Virus record (IMG/VR): IMGVR_UViG_3300025133_000345
Span: 1 to 35,340 of that record
DNA: 35,340 bases
DNA from: a virus
Reading direction: 5' to 3' (one strand)
Positions 4,503 through 34,603 of the stretch are shown here, piece by piece. Positions within the stretch are counted from its first letter, which is position 1. Each line of letters starts with the position of its first letter. The notes below the pieces were generated by a model that was not told where the DNA came from, searched no databases, and was given only the letters and a program-made list of their open reading frames with translations. The translations under genes were made by a program, and so were the position numbers.

Positions 4503-6677
4503 ATGGGAAAATTCACAAATTGGGTTAAGGAAACAAGAAGTTTTCTTGCAAAAGAAGTAAGGGTTTTTAATGGTGGGAATACTACGCCAAACCAAAACCT
4601 TGCGTTAATGCCTAACTGGTTTTTTAACGCAAAACTAGGAATGCCAAGGGGCATAAATATTGTTGAGATTAGGCAGTACGCTAAAGAGACGACAGTACAG
4701 ATGGTAATCAATACTATCTTGAGGCAATTAAGAAATTCTGAGTGGGAAATTGTTCCTAAAGACACAAACGACAAAGAAGCATTACAAAGAAACAAAAAAG
4801 AGATTGAAAAACTCAAATTGTTTCTTGAACAACCAAACAGGAACGGAGACACTTTCTGGGACGTATGGGGTTCGTTCATTAGGGATGTGACTGAAATTGA
4901 TGCAGGGGTTATTCTTAAAGGAAAAAACGCTTCAGGAGATCTAGTGGAAATATTCTCTTATGATGCATCACGTTTTTTAGTTAATATAGATGAGTATGGG
5001 ATTATTGATGGGTATTACCAATACTCTTTTAGGATGCCTCAATCAGCACCCAAATTCTTCAAAAAGGAACAAATTATTTATGGTAAATTAAACACTAATG
5101 GTGAATTATTTCCTTATGGTTGGTCACCTTTACAATCTTTACAACCAGTAGTAGAAATAATGATTCAATCCACGAGGTATAATAAAGAGTTTTACCAAAA
5201 CAACGCAATTCCAGACGGGTTAGTTAGTTTACCAATGGATCAAAACCAGCTTGAAGATTTCAAACTTGCATGGCAGACAGAGATTAAAGGGAAACCGCAC
5301 AAACTCTTATTTCATAACTCAGATGCAAATTTTACGCCTTTAAGACTAAACAATAAAGATATGGAATGGTTGGAAGGACAAAAATGGTATTCTAAACAAG
5401 TTTTCGGTGCATACGGTGTAAGTTCACAAGAGGCAGGCTTTTTTGAACAGAGCAGCAGGGCGACTGGCGAGTCTCAGGAGCGGATCACAGTTAAGAACGC
5501 AATCAAACCTTACTTACAACTTATTTCTGACAAAATAAATAGAGAGATTATTCCTGATTATTTAGGTGGTGACGATTGTGAGATCAAATTTAGTTGGGTA
5601 ATGCGGGATGAGGCGTCAGAAAAGATTGAGCATGACCAAACAATGCAAATGCTTGGCCAGAACGTGTTAACTATTAATGAAGTAAGGTCAAAAGAAGGTT
5701 TGGATCCAGTCGAATGGGGTGACAAGCCGATGGCTTTAATCTTTCAAGAGTCGAAGGACGAAGGAGGAGCATCCTCAAAAGACGATGCACCTAAAGATAG
5801 AGACGACAAAAAGGAAGATAGAGATAAACAAAAGGATGAGAACGAGAAAAAAAAGAGAGATGAAAAGTCAATCGAACCAGTAATAATTAAAAAAACAGAA
5901 GAAATCAAAAAGGAAGAAGCAAAAGACTATGCTGATTTTTTGGACAAACAGTTCTCTAAATGGGAAACTTCTATCATTAGACACCTTGATGATCTGGACG
6001 ATACACTTGAAAAAGCAGTTTTCAACAAAACTTTCGGGGAATTTTTAAGAGGATTATTTAATTCTGTTAACACTAAAGGGTTCAGGAAAGGGTTAGCTGC
6101 AGTAATTAAATTAGGGTTAAAAGATGGTGTAGCTAGGGCAGAAAAAGAGTTAAAGATTGATATTGGCATTGGTCCAGCGTTTAACCAGTCAGTAGATAAC
6201 ATGGTTGAGCGGCAACTTGAAGGATTTTATGTTCAGGGGAAAAGATGGAATGGATTAAAAGGTGTTTCAGAGGATGTTCAGCGTGACATTAGCGAAATTG
6301 TTACTAAAGGGATTGCAAACAAAGCCGGGTTAAAAGTTATCAAGAACGAGATTAAGGATAAGATGACTCAGCTACGTGGTGGGGAAGTCAAAGGGGTAGT
6401 TACTGAGGGGCGTGCAATGAAGATTGCAAGAACAGAGAGTAACCGGTTCATCAACCAGGGCAAACTTGCGGCATTCAAAGATTCTGGACTAAAAGGTAAA
6501 AAGAAATGGAATTCTTTCCATGACAACAGAACCTCTGATATTTGTATATTCCTTAACAATCAAGTGAAGGAGTTAGATGATAACTTTATTGGTTCTAGTG
6601 GTGCTGAGTATAGCACTCCCCCTAGTCATCCAAACTGTCGAAGTGTTATTGAGTTTGTATTTCCAGACGAAGAATAA
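4503..6677 (+). CDS. Portal protein fused to MuF-like head morphogenesis domain
   Basis: A 724-residue protein. Residues 1 to about 410 fit a portal: it lies right after terminase and has portal-like stretches (IMIQSTRYNKEFYQNN; FGAYGVSSQEAGFFEQSS; ENVLT-like NVLTINEVRSKEGLDP). Residues about 415-480 are a highly charged Lys/Glu/Asp linker. The C-terminal 230 residues end in a Mu gpF/SPP1 gp7-type domain: ARTESNRF, then W-x5-D-x-RTS, and PPSHPNCRS. Portal and MuF are usually separate genes, though fusions occur. The portal ring is the DNA gate and the MuF part probably sits inside the head. It is read from its own late promoter. Confidence 0.85.
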   Translation: MGKFTNWVKETRSFLAKEVRVFNGGNTTPNQNLALMPNWFFNAKLGMPRGINIVEIRQYAKETTVQMVINTILRQLRNSEWEIVPKDTNDKEALQRNKKEIEKLKLFLEQPNRNGDTFWDVWGSFIRDVTEIDAGVILKGKNASGDLVEIFSYDASRFLVNIDEYGIIDGYYQYSFRMPQSAPKFFKKEQIIYGKLNTNGELFPYGWSPLQSLQPVVEIMIQSTRYNKEFYQNNAIPDGLVSLPMDQNQLEDFKLAWQTEIKGKPHKLLFHNSDANFTPLRLNNKDMEWLEGQKWYSKQVFGAYGVSSQEAGFFEQSSRATGESQERITVKNAIKPYLQLISDKINREIIPDYLGGDDCEIKFSWVMRDEASEKIEHDQTMQMLGQNVLTINEVRSKEGLDPVEWGDKPMALIFQESKDEGGASSKDDAPKDRDDKKEDRDKQKDENEKKKRDEKSIEPVIIKKTEEIKKEEAKDYADFLDKQFSKWETSIIRHLDDLDDTLEKAVFNKTFGEFLRGLFNSVNTKGFRKGLAAVIKLGLKDGVARAEKELKIDIGIGPAFNQSVDNMVERQLEGFYVQGKRWNGLKGVSEDVQRDISEIVTKGIANKAGLKVIKNEIKDKMTQLRGGEVKGVVTEGRAMKIARTESNRFINQGKLAAFKDSGLKGKKKWNSFHDNRTSDICIFLNNQVKELDDNFIGSSGAEYSTPPSHPNCRSVIEFVFPDEE

Positions 6678-6697
6678 ATATTATTTATAAACCTTAA
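6677..6697 (+). promoter_or_regulatory. Late promoter copy 2
   Basis: Identical to the 21-base element at 4403. TATA is centred near 6687, 27 bases before ATG 6714, so this transcript is probably leaderless. It overlaps the portal stop codon and drives the protease-scaffold-capsid block. Confidence 0.75.
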
Positions 6698-6713
6698 ATG
6701 TCGCTAATATTAT

Positions 6714-7574
6714 ATGGCAGACACAATGATGAAATTATGGGCACCCGTTACAAAGGATGCAAATGGTGATTTCGTCGCAATTCTTTCTGATACCTCAATG
6801 GATCGTGACGGAGAGTTCATGAGTAAAGAGCTTCTTAACGATTGGGCTTCAAATAATACCTTGAAGGCTTTGGCTAACCACGACAATTCAATGCAAAGTT
6901 GGGTTGGTGGTTGGACAGATTTGAGAACGGTTTCAAAAGGAGATAACACAGCATTAGTTGGTAAGCCTTGGTTTTTTAGTAAAGATGCAAACCCTTTAGC
7001 ACATCAAGTAAAGTTACAAGCTGAAGAAGCGTTATCAAAAGGAGAAAACCCTGGCATTTCTATTGGTGCTATTCCAGTTAAATCAATCCAGAAAGATATT
7101 GATGGAACACAACACACCGTGTACACCAAAGCAGAACTTTTGGAAGCAACATGGGTACCTATACAATCTAACCGCAATGCGACTTTTGGTCATATTGCAA
7201 AAAAGTTTAGTTTGGATATTACAAAATCGTTGGAGGACAACAAAATGACTGAAGAACAAATAAAAAAACAAGAAGAATCTTCAGAAGAAGTGGCACCTTC
7301 ACCAGCTCCTGAAGCAGAAGCAGCACCAGCTGCACCTGTAGAAGAAGCGAAAGAAGAAGTCTCATCTGAAGAAAAAAAAGAAGCTTCAAAATTAGTTGAG
7401 TTAGAAAAAGCTTTGAAAGCAACTCAAAAAGAACTGGCTGAAATGAAAACCAAAGCAGTTCTTAGTGCTACTGTTGAAGGGCCTAGCGCTCACAAGGAAG
7501 CAGTTGAGAAAGCAACAGAAGTAGAACCTACCTTTTTAGGACTAATGAAAATGAAGTATGGAGGAATAAATTAA
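6714..7574 (+). CDS. Prohead protease with C-terminal scaffold region
   Basis: A 286-residue protein. Residues 1 to about 170 fit an HK97/S78-type prohead serine protease: strand-rich start, ANHD with the candidate catalytic His near residue 61, and GISIGA with the candidate nucleophile Ser near residue 115. Residues about 175-286 are a Glu/Ala/Pro-rich segment followed by a coiled coil (LVELEKALKATQKELAEMK), typical of a scaffold. It directly precedes the major capsid gene. An in-frame internal start at 7245 would make the scaffold alone. The enzyme would cleave scaffold and capsid N-termini during maturation. Confidence 0.82.
   Translation: MADTMMKLWAPVTKDANGDFVAILSDTSMDRDGEFMSKELLNDWASNNTLKALANHDNSMQSWVGGWTDLRTVSKGDNTALVGKPWFFSKDANPLAHQVKLQAEEALSKGENPGISIGAIPVKSIQKDIDGTQHTVYTKAELLEATWVPIQSNRNATFGHIAKKFSLDITKSLEDNKMTEEQIKKQEESSEEVAPSPAPEAEAAPAAPVEEAKEEVSSEEKKEASKLVELEKALKATQKELAEMKTKAVLSATVEGPSAHKEAVEKATEVEPTFLGLMKMKYGGIN
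7245..7574 (+). CDS. Nested scaffold protein (internal start)
   Basis: The in-frame ATG 7245 lies eight bases after a perfect GGAGG (7232-7236) at the boundary between protease and scaffold. It would give a 109-residue protein starting MTEEQIKKQEESSEE that contains only the acidic coiled-coil region. Lambda makes its scaffold Nu3 from inside gene C in the same way. GGAGG could occur by chance, but its spacing and position at the domain boundary are persuasive. Confidence 0.65.
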   Translation: MTEEQIKKQEESSEEVAPSPAPEAEAAPAAPVEEAKEEVSSEEKKEASKLVELEKALKATQKELAEMKTKAVLSATVEGPSAHKEAVEKATEVEPTFLGLMKMKYGGIN

Positions 7575-7575
7575 A

Positions 7576-8637
7576 ATGGCATTTGGATCAAACGGATTAA
7601 GTAATGTTGGTGCAAGTCACGCATTTGACCAAGTATTTGGTAAATGCGGTGTAAGTGAAGACGAGCTTTACTACTCCCCTATGCAAGGGATTGATAAAAG
7701 AGTAGAAATGGCTAAAACTTACAAAGAAAGCATCAAAAAAGCACCTACCTTTGGGCACACCACTGGTGGAACAGTAACAGCTTACGGATTAATGCCTAGC
7801 TTTTTCGACCCGAGCATCGTGGATAGAACAGTTAGACAAACACCTTTAGTAAGATTATTACCAAGAAAAGCAGTAAGAGGAAGAAGTTATGTATATAACG
7901 CTTTAACTGCAAAAGCAGTACCAACCAACGGAACAGCAGGAAGCGGGTTCAAAGCGGACGACGCAGCACTTGCAGAAGATGTTGACACTTATACTGCAAC
8001 AAGCACAACCATGAAGTTTGCTTATGTTGTAGGAAGAGTAACCGGCCCGGCTTTAGCATCTGGTGAAGGATTCTTAAACCTATTACAGCAAGACATTGTG
8101 GTAAAAACTGCAGCAATGAATGAGATTTTAGAAAACGAAATCGTTAACGGCGCAGTAGCAACCAGTGCACTAGGTTTTGACGGTTTACGAACTGCAATCT
8201 CAACTAACTCAACCGCAGCAGCAGGAGCAGCAATCACTCTTGACGATATTAGAACTGATATGAACACTGTATTTGAAGCTAATGGAATGGTAGATTTAGT
8301 TGTAACTGACGGTAGTACTTTTAACACTATCAAAGGATTATTAATGGACTTCCAAAGGAATGTTGAAAGACCAAGCGCAGAAATGAGTTTTGGTATTCCA
8401 GACGCATTCACTTTTGACGGTGCATTATTTATCAAGGATAGATTCATGCCTACAGGAGCAGCATCAAGAGAAATCTTATACTTAGATTTAAGATACATCT
8501 TCTTAGCAGTATTACAAGATACAACTTTTGAAGAATTAGCTAAAACCAACGACAGCCAAAAATACATGTTAAAATGGTACGGAAGTTTAATCGTTACCGC
8601 TGAAGCATTAATGGCTAAAAGAACTGGTCTAGCATAG
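7576..8637 (+). CDS. Major capsid protein, HK97-type fold
   Basis: A 353-residue protein immediately after the protease-scaffold gene, with GGAGG 11 bases before its ATG. Length, position and composition (Ala/Thr/Gly-rich, low Lys, few Cys) fit an HK97-fold capsid protein. The end of the protein (YMLKWYGSLIVTAEALMAKR) resembles the closing strand and helix of such proteins. The first 70 or so residues could be a cleaved delta region. The fold is inferred from context. Confidence 0.8.
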   Translation: MAFGSNGLSNVGASHAFDQVFGKCGVSEDELYYSPMQGIDKRVEMAKTYKESIKKAPTFGHTTGGTVTAYGLMPSFFDPSIVDRTVRQTPLVRLLPRKAVRGRSYVYNALTAKAVPTNGTAGSGFKADDAALAEDVDTYTATSTTMKFAYVVGRVTGPALASGEGFLNLLQQDIVVKTAAMNEILENEIVNGAVATSALGFDGLRTAISTNSTAAAGAAITLDDIRTDMNTVFEANGMVDLVVTDGSTFNTIKGLLMDFQRNVERPSAEMSFGIPDAFTFDGALFIKDRFMPTGAASREILYLDLRYIFLAVLQDTTFEELAKTNDSQKYMLKWYGSLIVTAEALMAKRTGLA

Positions 8638-8650
8638 GAGGATATGGAAA

Positions 8651-8926
8651 ATGGCAGCAATACTATTATCAGCATGTACAGTAACTGTAGACGCAGCTTT
8701 AGCAGGATATAACGTTCACAAGATCGTTACACCGGCTACCGCTGATGACGGAGATACTATCGACATTAGTTCAATTTTGGACGCAACACAAATTGTAGCA
8801 GCATCTTGTCAAGCAGCAACTGACGGGTGGTTACCTGTAGCAGCGATCACCACTGCAGGCGTATTAACCATTCCTGGTTCAACTGATAACGAAGCAAGAA
8901 CAATTTATGTACAAGGAAGAATTTAG
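8651..8926 (+). CDS. Probable head decoration protein
   Basis: A 91-residue, strand-rich protein (Ala, Thr, Val, Asp) directly after the capsid gene with AGGAGG before its ATG. Size and position match capsid-stabilising decoration proteins. The start MAAILLSACTVTVDAA resembles a signal peptide superficially but lacks a basic N-region, and the context makes a virion protein more likely. No family motif is recognised. Confidence 0.6.
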   Translation: MAAILLSACTVTVDAALAGYNVHKIVTPATADDGDTIDISSILDATQIVAASCQAATDGWLPVAAITTAGVLTIPGSTDNEARTIYVQGRI

Positions 8927-8928
8927 GT

Positions 8929-8950
8929 TCTTCTCTTTTTTTTTATTTTT
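8929..8950 (+). terminator. T-tract, partial terminator
   Basis: Right after the decoration gene stop the sequence is pyrimidine-rich with a run of nine T. T-runs end archaeal transcripts, so this could lower expression of the downstream fibre genes relative to capsid. No hairpin is visible. Confidence 0.4.
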
Positions 8951-8978
8951 AAAATTTTAATCTTGGAGGATAAACAGA

Positions 8979-9443
8979 ATGGTAAACACACATTACGGTC
9001 AAAATTGGATGCAAGACGGAAAAGCAGTTACTATTGATGCAGATTTAACCTTAGCTGGCGCAAACACTCACAGTGGTGCGTTAACAGTAAGCGGGGCATT
9101 AACTGCAAGTGCAGCAACTACCACATCAGGTCAATTAAATGTGGGTGATTTACTTGTAGTTAGTCAAACAGCTCAAACACTTTCAGGTGCAGGAGCGGTA
9201 GACATCACTAGTACAATTACACATGTAGTAACAACAGGCACTGACGCATTAACTTTAGCAGATGGTGCAGAAGGTCAAATTAAAATTATTGTTATGAAAA
9301 CAGACGGTGGGGATGGAACATTAACACCAAGTAATCTTGGTAACGGTTCAACAATCACCTTTGACGATGTAGGGGATAGCGCATTGTTAGTATTTACTAA
9401 CGCGTCATGGCACATGTTCGGTGGAACCGCAACTTTAGCTTAG
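8979..9443 (+). CDS. Virion surface or fibre protein
   Basis: A 154-residue protein built of short Thr/Ser/Ala/Gly strands (LTLAGANTHSGALTVSGALT) typical of phage fibre and beta-helix surface proteins. A C-terminal domain containing GQIKIIVMKTDGGDGTLTPS resembles the end of the 372-residue fibre protein at 10991. GGAGG lies 12 bases before the ATG. It probably sits on the head or tail surface; the exact place is unknown. Confidence 0.6.
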   Translation: MVNTHYGQNWMQDGKAVTIDADLTLAGANTHSGALTVSGALTASAATTTSGQLNVGDLLVVSQTAQTLSGAGAVDITSTITHVVTTGTDALTLADGAEGQIKIIVMKTDGGDGTLTPSNLGNGSTITFDDVGDSALLVFTNASWHMFGGTATLA

Positions 9444-24208: not shown

Positions 24209-24323
24209 GTCTACAATTTACACAAACAGGTTTGAATATTTCATTTCTAAAACAGTCTTGAACATATTTACAATATGGACATTTTATTTTATAATAAGTT
24301 CTATTATATTCAGCATTATTCAT
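24192..24323 (-). CDS. Small zinc-ribbon peptide
   Basis: A 43-residue peptide starting MNNAEYNRTYYKIKCPYCKY with CPYC (residues 15-18) and CVNC (34-37), and a Lys tail. Its ATG overlaps the stop region of the lipoprotein gene upstream, so it is the last gene of the leftward operon. Confidence 0.6.
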   Translation of the reverse strand: MNNAEYNRTYYKIKCPYCKYVQDCFRNEIFKPVCVNCRQKIKK

Positions 24324-24813
24324 AACAGAACTCTTTAATCAGTTCACTTTTATCTTCTTCCGGTAACAAGTAATTAGCCCCAACACCATTTCTTAGAACG
24401 TAACAATGTTTGTGTTCTTTACGACAATAATCCATCAAGATTTGTGCTTCATCATTATTGCACGGGTCGTACAAGATACACTGTTCACCCGGCAATTTTA
24501 TACCGTAGCGTTCTCCTTCCCATTCACCGAACATTTCTTTCGCTTCTTGCGGAAGCAGTCCAATGTAAGATGGTGCGGGCAGGAAAGCGTTTAACTGTTC
24601 CTTGTCAAGATTATAATTACCGTCAAGGTGCATGTCTGTTCCTTGGTAATCGTAGACAACGTTCATTAAGTATCCACCGTTATCTTCTTGTTGTGTAAAA
24701 TGTACAGTGATAGTTCTTGTAGGGTCAATAAGCGTTTCATTGAACGAGTCCCCGTACGGTTCTGCACAAGCTAACATTACTAATCCAGTTAATCCTAATT
24801 TATTTATTTTCAT
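24316..24813 (-). CDS. Lipoprotein
   Basis: A 165-residue protein with a short signal peptide ending in the lipobox-like LVMLAC (Cys16). The rest contains a strand-rich domain with three clustered Cys (CILYDPC; DYCRKEHKHC) that may form disulfides, consistent with an outside location. Its start overlaps the HAD gene by 14 bases. In phage T5 a lipoprotein (Llp) blocks the receptor against superinfection; a similar task is possible here but nothing in the sequence proves it. Confidence 0.65.
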   Translation of the reverse strand: MKINKLGLTGLVMLACAEPYGDSFNETLIDPTRTITVHFTQQEDNGGYLMNVVYDYQGTDMHLDGNYNLDKEQLNAFLPAPSYIGLLPQEAKEMFGEWEGERYGIKLPGEQCILYDPCNNDEAQILMDYCRKEHKHCYVLRNGVGANYLLPEEDKSELIKEFCYE

Positions 24814-25387
24814 TTTCTAACACCTCTTTTAATGTATTCACCCTGATAACATCAGGATGAGTCTCAATCTGGTTATACTCTTTATTTAACAGGTAACTTG
24901 TGATACCCAGTTCTGCAACTTGGTTAGCTGTTTTCCCGTTATCTTCAACCATAAAACTAATGTTAGGGTTCCCCATTCCCATTCTGTACCTTAAATGGTC
25001 CGCCTTGTGTTCACGGAACAATAATTCATCATAAGGCATCTTGTTACTCTCTAACCAATATTCTGTGTCTTCTCTTACTTTACAGTCAGTCTGCCCTCCA
25101 CGAGAAGTTAATAAGAGGGTATGGTACTGTTCGTTAACTTCTCTCATGAACTCTTGTGCATGCTCAAAAGGTTCAATAGACCTTAACTGGCCAGAACTTC
25201 TAAACCCGTCAATACCGCACGTGAACAAGTATCCACCGAAAGTTTCAGAAATGAGTTCAAACAAGTTATGTTCGTTAGTTTTTATTTTGGTGATGTCCAA
25301 TTGTAACTCTTGCGAAAAATATGTTTCTAACCTTTTATAATAGTCAGCAAGTACACCGTCAATATCTATAACTGCCGTTTTTTTCAC
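24800..25387 (-). CDS. HAD-family 5'-deoxynucleotidase-like phosphatase
   Basis: A 195-residue HAD hydrolase. Motif I is AVIDIDGVLADYY with nucleophile Asp8 and acid Asp10, motif II is LLLTSRGG, and motif IV is SFMVEDNGKTANQVAELG. The size and the DIDGVLAD start fit the 5'(3')-deoxyribonucleotidase group, which removes phosphate from dNMPs. I chose GTG 25387 because GGAGGGG lies seven bases before it; an ATG at 25414 overlapping the previous stop is an alternative. It directly follows the A1-like gene, matching the A1/dmp pair of phage T5. Confidence 0.75.
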   Translation of the reverse strand: MKKTAVIDIDGVLADYYKRLETYFSQELQLDITKIKTNEHNLFELISETFGGYLFTCGIDGFRSSGQLRSIEPFEHAQEFMREVNEQYHTLLLTSRGGQTDCKVREDTEYWLESNKMPYDELLFREHKADHLRYRMGMGNPNISFMVEDNGKTANQVAELGITSYLLNKEYNQIETHPDVIRVNTLKEVLENENK

Positions 25388-25410
25388 TTTTCTTCCCCTC
25401 CGTAAATGTT

Positions 25411-26805
25411 TCATTCCCCTTTATACCTTCCATGAATTATGTGCGCCAACTGTGGCCTTCCATGTTCCCACATTAAACAGTGCGTGTTCATCCAACTTGA
25501 AGCGTAACCGTCGGTGTAAGGCAAATCAAGTTTGGTTGATGTACCGACAACTAATGTATCATTGTTCCAGTTAGCCGGTGTGTGGCTATGGGCAACAATA
25601 GCTTTCCCGTAAGATTCTTCCATTGACCTGATTGACCCTCTCGCACCACTTTTTCCTCTGTCACCGTGTGCGCCTAACAAGTACCCCCACCGTTTATGAT
25701 CGTTACGGCGTGGAAGAAAAGTAATATTGTTAGGCATACTTTGCCAGAACCTTCGTAACCCGTACTCTAACGGGTCTTTATCTTCGTTCATTGCGTCTGC
25801 AAGTTTAACTGCCATACGAAAGTTAAGATCGTCACTAGCGAACCGTCTTTCCTGGATGTACCTGTCAAGCCACTCGTTATGGTTACTCGCCACGAGGTAC
25901 AAGTCTTGTTTATTGTTCGCAAGATATATTTGTTCAAGCTCTCTTGCTGCTTGTTCAAGTTCTCCTTCCAAAGTCATGCCTTGAAGGTCCCTGTGGTACA
26001 TTTTAGCTTTTGTCACCACTTGTTTTGTTAAATGGTGACTTATACTATGCCCGTTAAAAAAGTCGTGCAGGTACACTTCTGACGGACTGAACTCGCTGAA
26101 CATTCTGAACGTTGCTTCTCTTACTTGAGGGTCAGTGTCGCCGCTGTGCCAATCGCCGAGTATCATCTGGCTAAGTTTAGCTTCACGTTGTGTGCCATCA
26201 GGGAAATATTCTATACCTAAATCAACAAACCTTCCGGTCTTTTTACTTGACTTAACATGCCTAGCGTGAAAGATTTTGTCATCTTCAATTTCTAATATAA
26301 CAGCACCGTAGGTGTGATCGTCACGAGCGTTCAGACCACGGCGTAGACGCATAAAAGAGGTGGTTTTATCATCAGAATCGTTATAATTAGGCCTTGTACA
26401 CGCCCCAGTAGACATGAGCAGTCTGGGTAAATCGTCAACACTGTTAGGAGCAACCTCGAAATATTGTTTAGGGTTTTCAATGATTAATGAACCTGTTTTG
26501 GAAGCCCTACGTCTTAACCCGGTGAGCGGTCTTGCGTTTTGTGGGTACCCCATCCTTCTTTGTGCACGGATTTTGGTGTTAAACTTCATTTCTTGTGTGC
26601 CTTCAAGAACGTGCGCTCTGTCAAACTCTGCAAGTTTGTTAATTAAACTTGGCCTGAACGTTCGTTCCCTGTTATGTTTACCGTATGTTCCCATGACCAC
26701 TAAATCTGCGTCATGCTCTTTACAATAATGGTTCATTGAGTCAAGAAACTTTGAGTTGGCCCTAGCGTTATACTGTGCACAAGTTATCAAATATTTCTTT
26801 GTCAT
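25411..26805 (-). CDS. T5 A1-like calcineurin-type metallophosphatase (host DNA degradation)
   Basis: A 464-residue protein with a calcineurin-like active site in its second half: GDWH (Asp218, His220), HDFFNGHS (Asp248), SNHNE (Asn308, His309), GAHGDRG (His380) and AHSHTP (His406, His408). The N-terminal 200 residues are a family-specific domain. Length, domain order and the motifs recall protein A1 of phage T5, which is needed for breakdown of host DNA in the first minutes of infection. It is first in a tight pair with the deoxynucleotidase-like gene. An Mre11-type nuclease or other phosphodiesterase is the alternative. Confidence 0.72.
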   Translation of the reverse strand: MTKKYLITCAQYNARANSKFLDSMNHYCKEHDADLVVMGTYGKHNRERTFRPSLINKLAEFDRAHVLEGTQEMKFNTKIRAQRRMGYPQNARPLTGLRRRASKTGSLIIENPKQYFEVAPNSVDDLPRLLMSTGACTRPNYNDSDDKTTSFMRLRRGLNARDDHTYGAVILEIEDDKIFHARHVKSSKKTGRFVDLGIEYFPDGTQREAKLSQMILGDWHSGDTDPQVREATFRMFSEFSPSEVYLHDFFNGHSISHHLTKQVVTKAKMYHRDLQGMTLEGELEQAARELEQIYLANNKQDLYLVASNHNEWLDRYIQERRFASDDLNFRMAVKLADAMNEDKDPLEYGLRRFWQSMPNNITFLPRRNDHKRWGYLLGAHGDRGKSGARGSIRSMEESYGKAIVAHSHTPANWNNDTLVVGTSTKLDLPYTDGYASSWMNTHCLMWEHGRPQLAHIIHGRYKGE

Positions 26806-27152: not shown

Positions 27153-27500
27153 TTATCCGGTTCTAAACCAGCCGTACCTTCTACCTTTTCTTTTATAATC
27201 TAACAAAAACTCTTCAACTTCTAACCCTAAAATGGTCAATGATGGCGGGACAAGAATACTTTGCCGGTACACCAAGTTAAACTTCTCACCCTTGAACCTT
27301 TCAAACACTTTAAACCCTAACCCAACTTGTTGACTGATAGGACTATAATCTAAAGTAAGAAAATCTAAATAAGTGCGTAAGGGTGACGGTCTTCTTACTC
27401 TTGTGTAAGGGGAAATCATCGGTTGTACTGCTTTCCCATTAATTTTTGGGTCTTCGTTCACAAACCCGTGAACTTGTACTAAATCTTCTAGTATGGTCAT
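27153..27500 (-). CDS. Small paralogous protein, member 2
   Basis: A 115-residue protein from ATG 27500 (MTILEDLVQVHGF), with a possible ATG at 27515. The ATG sits in ATGA overlap with the stop of a truncated copy of the member at 28453. It shares R-x-PSPLRTY, LDYSP, NLVYRQSILVPP and YKRKGRRYGW with that family (compare LNYNP, NLVYNHATVIPP and FEKKIKAYGW). Confidence 0.6.
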   Translation of the reverse strand: MTILEDLVQVHGFVNEDPKINGKAVQPMISPYTRVRRPSPLRTYLDFLTLDYSPISQQVGLGFKVFERFKGEKFNLVYRQSILVPPSLTILGLEVEEFLLDYKRKGRRYGWFRTG

Positions 27501-27577
27501 TCTAGTTTCCCCCATCCGTATGCTTTAATTTTCTTTTCAAAATTATTAATTTGGTCGTGTAGTTCTCTTATCAATAA
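27497..27577. repeat. Direct repeat A flanking the methyltransferase cassette
   Basis: 81 bases matching 28453-28533 with four mismatches. On the minus strand it encodes a detached C-terminal fragment (LIRELHDQINNFEKKIKAYG then WGKLE) of the 28453 protein and, in another frame, the last ten residues of the methyltransferase. Confidence 0.85.
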
Positions 27578-28355
27578 GATAAAGGAGAGATTCTTGCCTA
27601 ATCCTTTTTCTTGCTATTTGACAATATTCTTCTGAAATATCTATACCAATAAATCTTCTTCCTTGTAGTTTAGCAATTTTACAAGTAGTTCCAGAACCAA
27701 CAAAAGGGTCTAAAATCAAATCTCCTTTATTACTCCAAGAGATGATGTGGTCGTTGGCTAGTTGTTCTGGGAATACTGCAGGGTGCTTAAATGCTATCTT
27801 GTCTCTTGTAGTTTGGTTACTACCAACCTTTACGCTCCAAATGTTGTATTTGTCTCTCTCTAAATTTCTAATTTTACCGTAGTCTGTGAATTTCCCATTT
27901 TCTTGCTGTGTGCCTGTGTATTTTTCAGTGCCTTTTGCCAAAGTTTTAACTCGTATAGGATTAAAAGTGTTCGGTCTGCCTTTTGAAAAAACAAACATAT
28001 ACTCAAAACAAGGCATATACCTTATGCTTTTAACTGGCATCGGATTCAACTTGTGGTATATCATCGTATCGTGTAAATTAAAACCACACTCCATAAAATA
28101 TAGTGCTTGTTTAAAACTTGTACCTGTTTCACTACCTTTAATCGTAGCATCTCCAACCACCCAAACTACCACTCCACCTTCTTTGGTTACTCTGTATAAT
28201 TCTTTTGCTATTGTTTCAAAGTCAAAAGAATATCCTTTATAAACTCTTAAATTATCATAGGGTGGCGATGTAACAGTTAAATCAACAGAATTGTTATCAA
28301 TCTGTTTAAGTAATTCAGCAGAATTACCTTGATGTATCTGGTTGATTTCAAGCAT
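27546..28355 (-). CDS. Orphan DNA methyltransferase (N4-cytosine/N6-adenine, beta order)
   Basis: A 269-residue enzyme. The catalytic motif TSPPY is at 29-33 and the AdoMet motif LDPFVGSGTT at 215-224, so catalysis precedes cofactor binding (beta class). SPPY is most often seen in N4-cytosine enzymes. No restriction enzyme is next to it. I used ATG 28355; an upstream TTG 28364 is possible. Its last residues (LIDKRTTRPN) are encoded by duplicated DNA, so the native C-terminus was replaced on insertion. It could protect viral DNA from host restriction or from the virus's own nucleases. Confidence 0.85.
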   Translation of the reverse strand: MLEINQIHQGNSAELLKQIDNNSVDLTVTSPPYDNLRVYKGYSFDFETIAKELYRVTKEGGVVVWVVGDATIKGSETGTSFKQALYFMECGFNLHDTMIYHKLNPMPVKSIRYMPCFEYMFVFSKGRPNTFNPIRVKTLAKGTEKYTGTQQENGKFTDYGKIRNLERDKYNIWSVKVGSNQTTRDKIAFKHPAVFPEQLANDHIISWSNKGDLILDPFVGSGTTCKIAKLQGRRFIGIDISEEYCQIARKRIRQESLLYLIDKRTTRPN

Positions 28356-28360
28356 TGAAA

Positions 28361-28456
28361 TCAACCCATTTCTTTTGTTTTTTTACCATTTTCTTCATCA
28401 AAAACTTCTATAAATCTTAACTTTCTTCCCTTATGTTCAATTATTTCTTCTTTCAT
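28361..28456 (-). CDS. Small peptide carried with the methyltransferase
   Basis: A 31-residue charged peptide (MKEEIIEHKGRKLRFIEVFD and so on), in ATGA overlap with the stop of the 28453 gene and ending six bases before the methyltransferase ATG. It lies between the two copies of the repeat and so belongs to the inserted cassette. Function unknown. Confidence 0.45.
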   Translation of the reverse strand: MKEEIIEHKGRKLRFIEVFDEENGKKTKEMG

Positions 28457-28533
28457 TCTAATTGCCCCCATCCGTATGCTTTAATTTTCTTTTCAAAATT
28501 ATTAATTTGGTCGTGCAATTCTCTTATCAATAA
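28453..28533. repeat. Direct repeat B flanking the methyltransferase cassette
   Basis: The native copy of the 81-base repeat: the 3' end of the 28453-28818 gene. The matching copy is at 27497-27577. The 956-base period defines the cassette. Confidence 0.85.
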
Positions 28534-28818
28534 ATCGTATTGTGGAGGAATAACTGTTGCGTGATTATATACAAGATTGCCGTGATGCGACTCGTCTGGT
28601 TGTTCGGTTATCTCCCAACCGTTAGTTCTTACAAGAAACCCCATTATATCTGTTGGATTATAGTTTAGTGTGGCAACGTCAACATAATTGTAAATTTTCT
28701 TGCTTAGAGGTTCTCTCATTCTAATGTAGTTTATAATGTGTCCCGGCAATTCTTCTCCGTTGATAGTAAACTGTGACGGTTCCCATCCTTCTGCTTGCAT
28801 AATTCTGTCTAAATCCAT
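28453..28818 (-). CDS. Small paralogous protein, member 1
   Basis: A 121-residue protein with LNYNPTDIMGFLVRTNGW, NLVYNHATVIPP and the C-terminal helix QINNFEKKIKAYGWG. It is the full-length relative of the truncated fragment at 27500-27577 and a paralogue of the proteins at 27153 and 26809. It is two bases after the upstream membrane protein gene. Function unknown. Confidence 0.65.
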   Translation of the reverse strand: MDLDRIMQAEGWEPSQFTINGEELPGHIINYIRMREPLSKKIYNYVDVATLNYNPTDIMGFLVRTNGWEITEQPDESHHGNLVYNHATVIPPQYDLLIRELHDQINNFEKKIKAYGWGQLE

Positions 28819-30731: not shown

Positions 30732-30934
30732 TTTTTCCAGTCTCCATAACATTTTTTGTTTGTTATACTTATAATAATATACTTTCCTTTATAAATGTTT
30801 CTATTCTTAAAAAGATATATTTATAAATCTTTCTATCAAATTAAATACTTTTTATATAGTTTTTATATAATAAATAACATAAAAGTTTATAAAGATTAAA
30901 TAATTTTACTTATTTAAAAATGGAGGAAATCAAA
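30732..30934. promoter_or_regulatory. Divergent promoter region, possible replication origin
   Basis: An extremely AT-rich 203-base gap between the leftward and rightward operons. On the minus strand two TATA repeats with period 32 (TTTATAAATGTTTCTATT near 30788 and TTTATAAATCTTTCTATC near 30820) correspond to ATAGAAA-x-ATTTATAAA, the early motif. On the plus strand TTTTATATA (30850, 30861) and GTTTATAAAG (30885) precede the AbrB gene. An origin is plausible next to the primase but is not shown. Confidence 0.55.
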
Positions 30935-31087
30935 ATGCATTACGAAATATTTTATGATACCGTTAAAGATCACAACGGTGTTTTAAGACTGACAATACCT
31001 TCTAAAGTTGTAAAATTTATAGGACTAGAAGAAGGAAATCTTGTTAAAATAATGATACAAAAACAAATAAAAAAAGAAGATGAATAG
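30935..31087 (+). CDS. AbrB/SpoVT-type DNA-binding protein
   Basis: A 50-residue protein with the swapped-hairpin pattern GVLRLTIPSKVVKFIGLEEG followed by NLVKIMIQK. The ATG follows GGAGG by eight bases. AbrB dimers act as transition regulators in bacteria and archaea. As first gene of the replication operon it may control the divergent promoters. Confidence 0.8.
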   Translation: MHYEIFYDTVKDHNGVLRLTIPSKVVKFIGLEEGNLVKIMIQKQIKKEDE

Positions 31088-31106
31088 TTTTTAAGTGAGG
31101 TGTGTG

Positions 31107-34147: not shown

Positions 34148-34155
34148 ATTGTATT

Positions 34156-34171
34156 GAGAGGTTTTCCTCTC
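34156..34171 (+). other. Intergenic hairpin
   Basis: GAGAGG and CCTCTC form six base pairs around TTTT between the 33818 gene and the EctC-like gene. It may set separate message levels. A short TTT follows, so a weak terminator is possible. Confidence 0.5.
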
Positions 34172-34195
34172 TTTACTATCGTGAGGTATGTAAAA

Positions 34196-34603
34196 ATGAT
34201 GATAATAAAATTAGAAGAATTAAAAGAAAAGAAAAGAGTTGTTAATTGTCCATTTGGAGATTTTGTAAGTAATAGGTTTTTATTAGAGCAAGACGGAATG
34301 GGATTTACTTTCACAAAAACTATAATTCCAAAAAACAACAAAACAAATTTTTGGCACTATAAAAATCATTTAGAAGCCTGTTATTGCATTTCCGGAAATG
34401 CAACTTTGATTAATTTAGAAAATGATGAAAAACATAAAATAACAAAAGACGTTTTATATGTTTTAAATAATAATGAAAAACACAGACTTATTACACACGA
34501 AGATACAGTTTTGTTGTGTGTTTTTAATCCTCCTCTTAAAGGAAACGAGGTTCACAACAAAGATGGTGTTTATGTTTCAGGGGGTGAAAAAAATGGAAAA
34601 TAA
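34196..34603 (+). CDS. Ectoine synthase (EctC)-like cupin
   Basis: A 135-residue protein, the usual EctC length. The barrel has KNHLEACYCISG, ITKDVLYVLNNNEKHRL and LLCVFNPPLKGNEVHNKDGV, close to ectoine synthase throughout. The three iron ligands of EctC are present as Glu60, Tyr88 and His96 with the family spacing (28 and 8). EctC closes N-gamma-acetyldiaminobutyrate to ectoine, a compatible solute. EctA and EctB are absent, so the enzyme may use a host metabolite or a related substrate. It overlaps the ParB-like gene by 11 bases. Confidence 0.82.
   Translation: MMIIKLEELKEKKRVVNCPFGDFVSNRFLLEQDGMGFTFTKTIIPKNNKTNFWHYKNHLEACYCISGNATLINLENDEKHKITKDVLYVLNNNEKHRLITHEDTVLLCVFNPPLKGNEVHNKDGVYVSGGEKNGK

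Follow-up and report, generated by a model that had tools for sequence, protein, structure and literature searches.

Does a virus with an archaeal-type replication apparatus carry the pair of genes with which phage T5 destroys the DNA of its host? The question arises from the IMG/VR record IMGVR_UViG_3300025133_000345, a stretch of 35,340 nucleotides (nt) of viral DNA (the window), in which two minus-strand genes encode a calcineurin-type phosphatase of 464 amino acids (aa) followed by a HAD enzyme of 204 aa. A preliminary description of the window likened these proteins to T5 A1 and Dmp and proposed that they follow the same strategy; in T5, the breakdown of host DNA cannot proceed without A1, and its products are dealt with by Dmp (PMC13250531). 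The two genes are real, and all of the motifs quoted for them are present (GDWH at residue 217, SNHNE at 307, GAHGD at 378 and HSH at 406 of the larger protein; DIDGVLAD at position 17 of the HAD protein). The larger open reading frame (ORF) is not a chance occurrence, since open frames in 300 shuffles of the region reach at most 212 codons. The two genes share 4 nt (ATGA), and the HAD gene in turn has 14 nt in common with the following ORF, of 165 aa; co-translation of all three is therefore probable. Together they close a leftward gene run that seems to begin near 30.8 kb.

The 464-aa protein (window A1) is a member of the T5 A1 family, as profile search and BLASTP agree in confirming at the sequence level. 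It matches PHROG_1745 with an E-value of 6.3e-79, residues 2-460 aligning to positions 86-538 of the 542-position profile that T5 A1 itself matches at 8.5e-244, and BLASTP against T5 A1 aligns it end to end at 26% identity. Pfam and NCBIfam searches gave no convincing match, and a sequence search among solved structures gave none. In an alignment of 58 family members, the ligand pattern D-x-H / D / N-H / H / H-x-H is invariant apart from one position conserved in 57/58, and it is complete in window A1 (D218, H220, D248, N308, H380, H406 and H408).

An AlphaFold2 model of window A1 (pLDDT 93.2) contains the metallophosphoesterase domain that the preliminary description had anticipated. In a fold search, residues 208-460 resemble the exonuclease of archaeal PolD DP1 (Z 13.0), LpxH (12.6), SbcD/Mre11 exonucleases (~12) and other calcineurin-like folds; the search bears almost entirely on this second half of the protein. 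The model supports a phosphodiesterase and makes a nuclease likely, the nuclease match not being unique. The same matches bear on a different reading, in which the A1 proteins of viruses other than T5 work on viral DNA, in its replication, recombination or end processing, in the manner of Mre11 or PolD DP1, with the HAD protein as a DNA 3′-phosphatase that cleans ends. Structurally, window A1 comes closest to a polymerase proofreading subunit and to Mre11, several A1 genes adjoin DNA polymerase or primase/helicase genes, and the A1 operon contains no other recognised repair nuclease. The genetics of T5 A1, however, concern host DNA, and we regard this service to viral DNA as unlikely.

The virus that carries these genes is, on the strength of its gene content, well supported as an archaeal-type tailed virus (Caudoviricetes), in line with the earlier assignment. 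Its terminase and portal are nearest to those of haloarchaeal tailed viruses, the relatives of its PrimPol protein are found in archaeal viruses only, and an ERCC4-type nuclease is present. The first ORF of the window is the terminal part of a B-family polymerase gene, and a B-family polymerase also occurs in a relative. Archaeal TATA-like boxes (TTTATAAA) number 8 against 3.3 expected. Scanning genomes with an alignment of PrimPol found no relatives.

The A1 family itself is widespread: tblastn finds it in 1118 phage records, including Flavobacterium, Caulobacter, Cellulophaga and Rhizobium phages, it occurs in 451 IMG/VR environmental stretches, and its presence outside T5-like phages has already been published, including in 2012 (PMC3556154, PMC8541194). 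The surprise that the preliminary description expressed at A1 beyond the T5-like phages is therefore unfounded. The archaeal-type setting may be the new part of the finding, which extends the A1 family to an archaeal-type virus and so places known biology in a new kind of virus. Profile searches of five haloarchaeal tailed viruses gave no A1 match, a weak negative in that no control genome matched either.

Most A1 proteins in the 58-sequence alignment carry about 90 extra N-terminal residues (median 89) that are missing from window A1 and from five other members (L014, L020, L037, L046 and L075); because of these five, the extension is no strict requirement of the family. In phiCbK A1, the N-terminal part has a reported DNA-binding-like similarity. 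A tree built by a quick method, with SH-aLRT support only, places window A1 away from T5, as a long branch that joins a large environmental clade, one that includes an Ochrobactrum phage, close to its base. A1 might also contribute to takeover by changing host transcription, its phosphoesterase activity being secondary, given that T5 A1 binds and co-purifies with RNA polymerase and that such a role has been proposed for the A1 proteins of phiCbK and KASIA (PMC3556154, PMC8541194). The extension is missing from window A1 and the five others, whereas all retain the metal site, and a mainly transcriptional role appears quite improbable.

The HAD protein is likely, from its sequence, an NT5C-type 5′-deoxynucleotidase. 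It matches Pfam NT5C (PF06941) at 27.8 bits against a curated cut-off of 24.8, and carries D17, D19, T103, K137 and E157/D158. The sole sequence match among solved structures is 3bwv (E 0.0044), which also ranks first in a fold search that we keep only as a hint, because the underlying model, made from two sequences, is too poor (pLDDT 48). With the HAD protein as query, neither tblastn of phage records nor a viral-contig scan based on this protein alone gave any match. The NT5C family has been reported in the Druskaviridae, which are archaeal viruses (PMC8651126).

The proposed likeness to T5 Dmp holds in part. An NT5C-type phosphatase stands as the likely identity, and PHROG_415 (E 5.3e-15) is shared with T5 Dmp, whose family it is and which matches no Pfam family. 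The relationship to Dmp itself is only remote: PHROG_420 (1.7e-17) outscores PHROG_415, and BLASTP against T5 Dmp aligns just 48 residues, ending after the first HAD motif, both of which argue against orthology. We dropped PHROG_415 as proof of orthology; the profile also matches frames of 297-324 aa, probably kinase-phosphatases. This family holds T5 Dmp yet is named polynucleotide kinase, a label that misleads annotation.

A DNA 3′-phosphatase, as required by the viral-DNA reading, would fit that family name and the second Pfam match of the HAD protein, HAD_PNKP; the curated cut-off, however, is passed by NT5C and not by HAD_PNKP. The closest viral relative (29%) also points elsewhere: it forms the latter half of a dUTPase_2-HAD fusion (L109, 1426-2379), and the next gene encodes ThyX. 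Because of this fusion and its neighbour, a role in nucleotide pools is favoured over DNA-end repair and is, on these comparisons, likely. The fusion beside ThyX is itself a possible one-chain enzyme leading from deoxynucleoside triphosphate (dNTP) to deoxynucleoside.

Whether A1 and the HAD protein form a pair was approached through gene neighbourhoods. The window genes are co-directional and close, as are A1 and dmp in the T5 pre-early module (A1, A2 and dmp, in the terminal repeats); two genes lie between A1 and dmp in T5, and the two are adjacent in Vibrio phage Pontus. In T5 the terminal-repeat segment is transferred in the first step; the window record is a 35-kb fragment without end repeats. 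In the environmental phage L058, an independent A1 phage, a HAD relative (31%) lies directly behind A1. Adjacency of this kind suggests a functional link. As proof of a functional pair it was dropped, occurring in one of 50 other A1 genomes (L058) and being absent from its sister L067, which has A1 and lacks the HAD gene. Because of this single occurrence, the sameness of strategy with T5 is something we infer.

The wider neighbourhood of A1 was compared in environmental phages, with 25 families listed per set. Within two genes of A1, 12/143 neighbours are enzymes of deoxynucleoside monophosphate (dNMP) or dNTP metabolism (thymidylate kinase 5, dNMP kinase 4, dGTP/dATP diphosphohydrolase 2, dUTPase 1), against 2/129 at a distance of 5-6 genes, both dNMP kinases (p 0.009, or p 0.05 counting ribonucleotide reductase, uncorrected for relatedness). 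The tendency of A1 genes to sit near dNMP enzymes is consistent with release of dNMPs by A1 and lends it weak support, because related loci are not independent and 25 families per set are listed.

Taken together, these genes are consistent with an operon that would degrade nucleic acid and discard nucleotides in a tailed virus whose replication genes are of archaeal type. A1 would act as a two-metal phosphodiesterase, most likely cutting DNA to small fragments and dNMPs, with the host chromosome as its likely target. The co-translated HAD protein would most likely strip the 5′-phosphate from the dNMPs, so that the products leave the pool. That the pair destroys host DNA is a reasonable hypothesis, which we hold tentatively and at somewhat short of an even chance; it supposes these substrates, early expression and an effect on the host. 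Several observations weigh against it. LpxH scores on a par with the nucleases, A1-HAD adjacency is at about chance level, no A2 homolog was seen, window A1 is without the N-terminal extension, and T5 Dmp is dispensable (PMC8108384). In the marine phages L058, L067, L111 and L013, A1 lies beside major-capsid-like and other virion genes, and a general early role therefore does not fit. Taken by itself, this neighbourhood of virion genes is surprising for an enzyme of host takeover.

The two phosphatases might instead act in counter-defence, removing nucleotide signals or nucleotides needed by a host defence system. Cyclic nucleotides can be substrates of metallophosphoesterases. In T5, Dmp changes the dNTP pool that the Clover defence system senses (PMC12265719); the full-length A1 architecture nevertheless speaks for an A1 role, and we hold counter-defence to be very improbable.

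The host-DNA reading also takes in the methyltransferase of the same gene run, which may mark viral DNA as self and would then be a self-protection partner. That an archaeal virus destroys the host chromosome by a complete T5-type module, made of an extension-less A1, a coupled 5′-deoxynucleotidase and a methyltransferase that marks viral DNA, is unlikely as a whole; should it prove true, archaeal viruses would have their first module of this kind, with the minimal A1 nuclease in it. The genes concerned and the promoter region upstream of them are collected in Table 1.

Table 1 Features of the A1 operon and the adjoining replication region in the window.
Feature	Coordinates	Strand	Evidence
T5 A1-family metallophosphoesterase, 464 aa, without N-terminal extension	25411..26805	-	PHROG_1745, BLASTP to T5 A1, 58-sequence alignment, AlphaFold2
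HAD phosphatase, NT5C type, probable 5′-deoxynucleotidase, 204 aa	24800..25414	-	Pfam NT5C, PHROG_420, PHROG_415
165-aa ORF, lipoprotein-like signal, final gene of operon	24316..24813	-	sequence
DNA N6/N4 methyltransferase, same leftward run, upstream of A1	27546..28364	-	Pfam N6_N4_Mtase E 2.1e-47
Divergent promoter region, archaeal TATA-like boxes TTTATAAA at 30788, 30820, 30886	30780..31094	.	
PrimPol/helicase-like replication protein, archaeal MCM-type winged helix	31095..33773	+	weak Pfam LigD_Prim-Pol, MCM_WH_arc

The divergent promoter region is the probable start of both the leftward run, which includes A1, and the rightward PrimPol run. At 27153-27515 and 28453-28818, small paralogous ORFs that flank the methyltransferase gene have an 81-nt direct repeat (95%) close to their 3′ ends; the methyltransferase gene may have arrived with, or between, the duplicated genes. 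At the end of the operon, the 165-aa ORF has a lipoprotein-like start (MKINKLGLTGLVMLAC), matches nothing in PHROGs or Pfam and has no homolog among the loci compared. The parallel once drawn between this ORF and T5 Llp does not survive comparison: 17 residues align (E 1.3) with no likeness past the signal peptide, the protein is twice as long (165 versus 77 aa), and T5 Llp adjoins the receptor-binding gene oad, far from A1, whereas the window ORF lies beside the HAD gene.

Elsewhere in the window, a 149-aa cupin (34154-34603, plus strand) matches ectoine synthase (PF06339, E 1.4e-41), and its gene may serve osmolyte production in this archaeal-type virus; a genome scan with this protein gave three matches, all bacterial. 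In the related virus contig L004, positions 4744-9292 hold QueD, QueE-like, FolE, QueC and a DpdA-like gene, probably for 7-deazaguanine DNA modification, and at the position of these Que/FolE genes the window has the ectoine-synthase-like gene and a ParB-like gene instead.

Window A1 is compact, its structure is predicted with confidence and its fold matches are nuclease-like, which makes it a convenient subject for deciding whether the nuclease is A1. The genes surveyed around A1 point to a possible split between A1 genes near dNMP kinases, where host nucleotides would be reused, and those beside a nucleotidase, where they would be disposed of.

Among known systems, T5 Dmp resembles the window HAD protein in being a HAD phosphatase downstream of A1 and in matching PHROG_415, but pairwise similarity is confined to the first HAD motif, and PHROG_420 and NT5C are closer to the window HAD protein. 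This protein passes the Pfam cut-off of the NT5C 5′(3′)-deoxyribonucleotidases (PF06941; 3bwv), from which it differs in its low similarity, in a motif IV that reads ED rather than DD, and in a substrate that is predicted only. The closest named relative of window A1, the metallophosphatase of Ochrobactrum phage vB_OspM_OC (33% over 99%), shares its large clade, yet retains the N-terminal extension and has no HAD gene beside it. T5 A1 belongs to another branch of the tree and has the extension of about 90 residues that the protein of this archaeal-type virus lacks, but the two align end to end with the same metal ligands, and in both viruses a gene for a known or predicted 5′-nucleotidase lies downstream.
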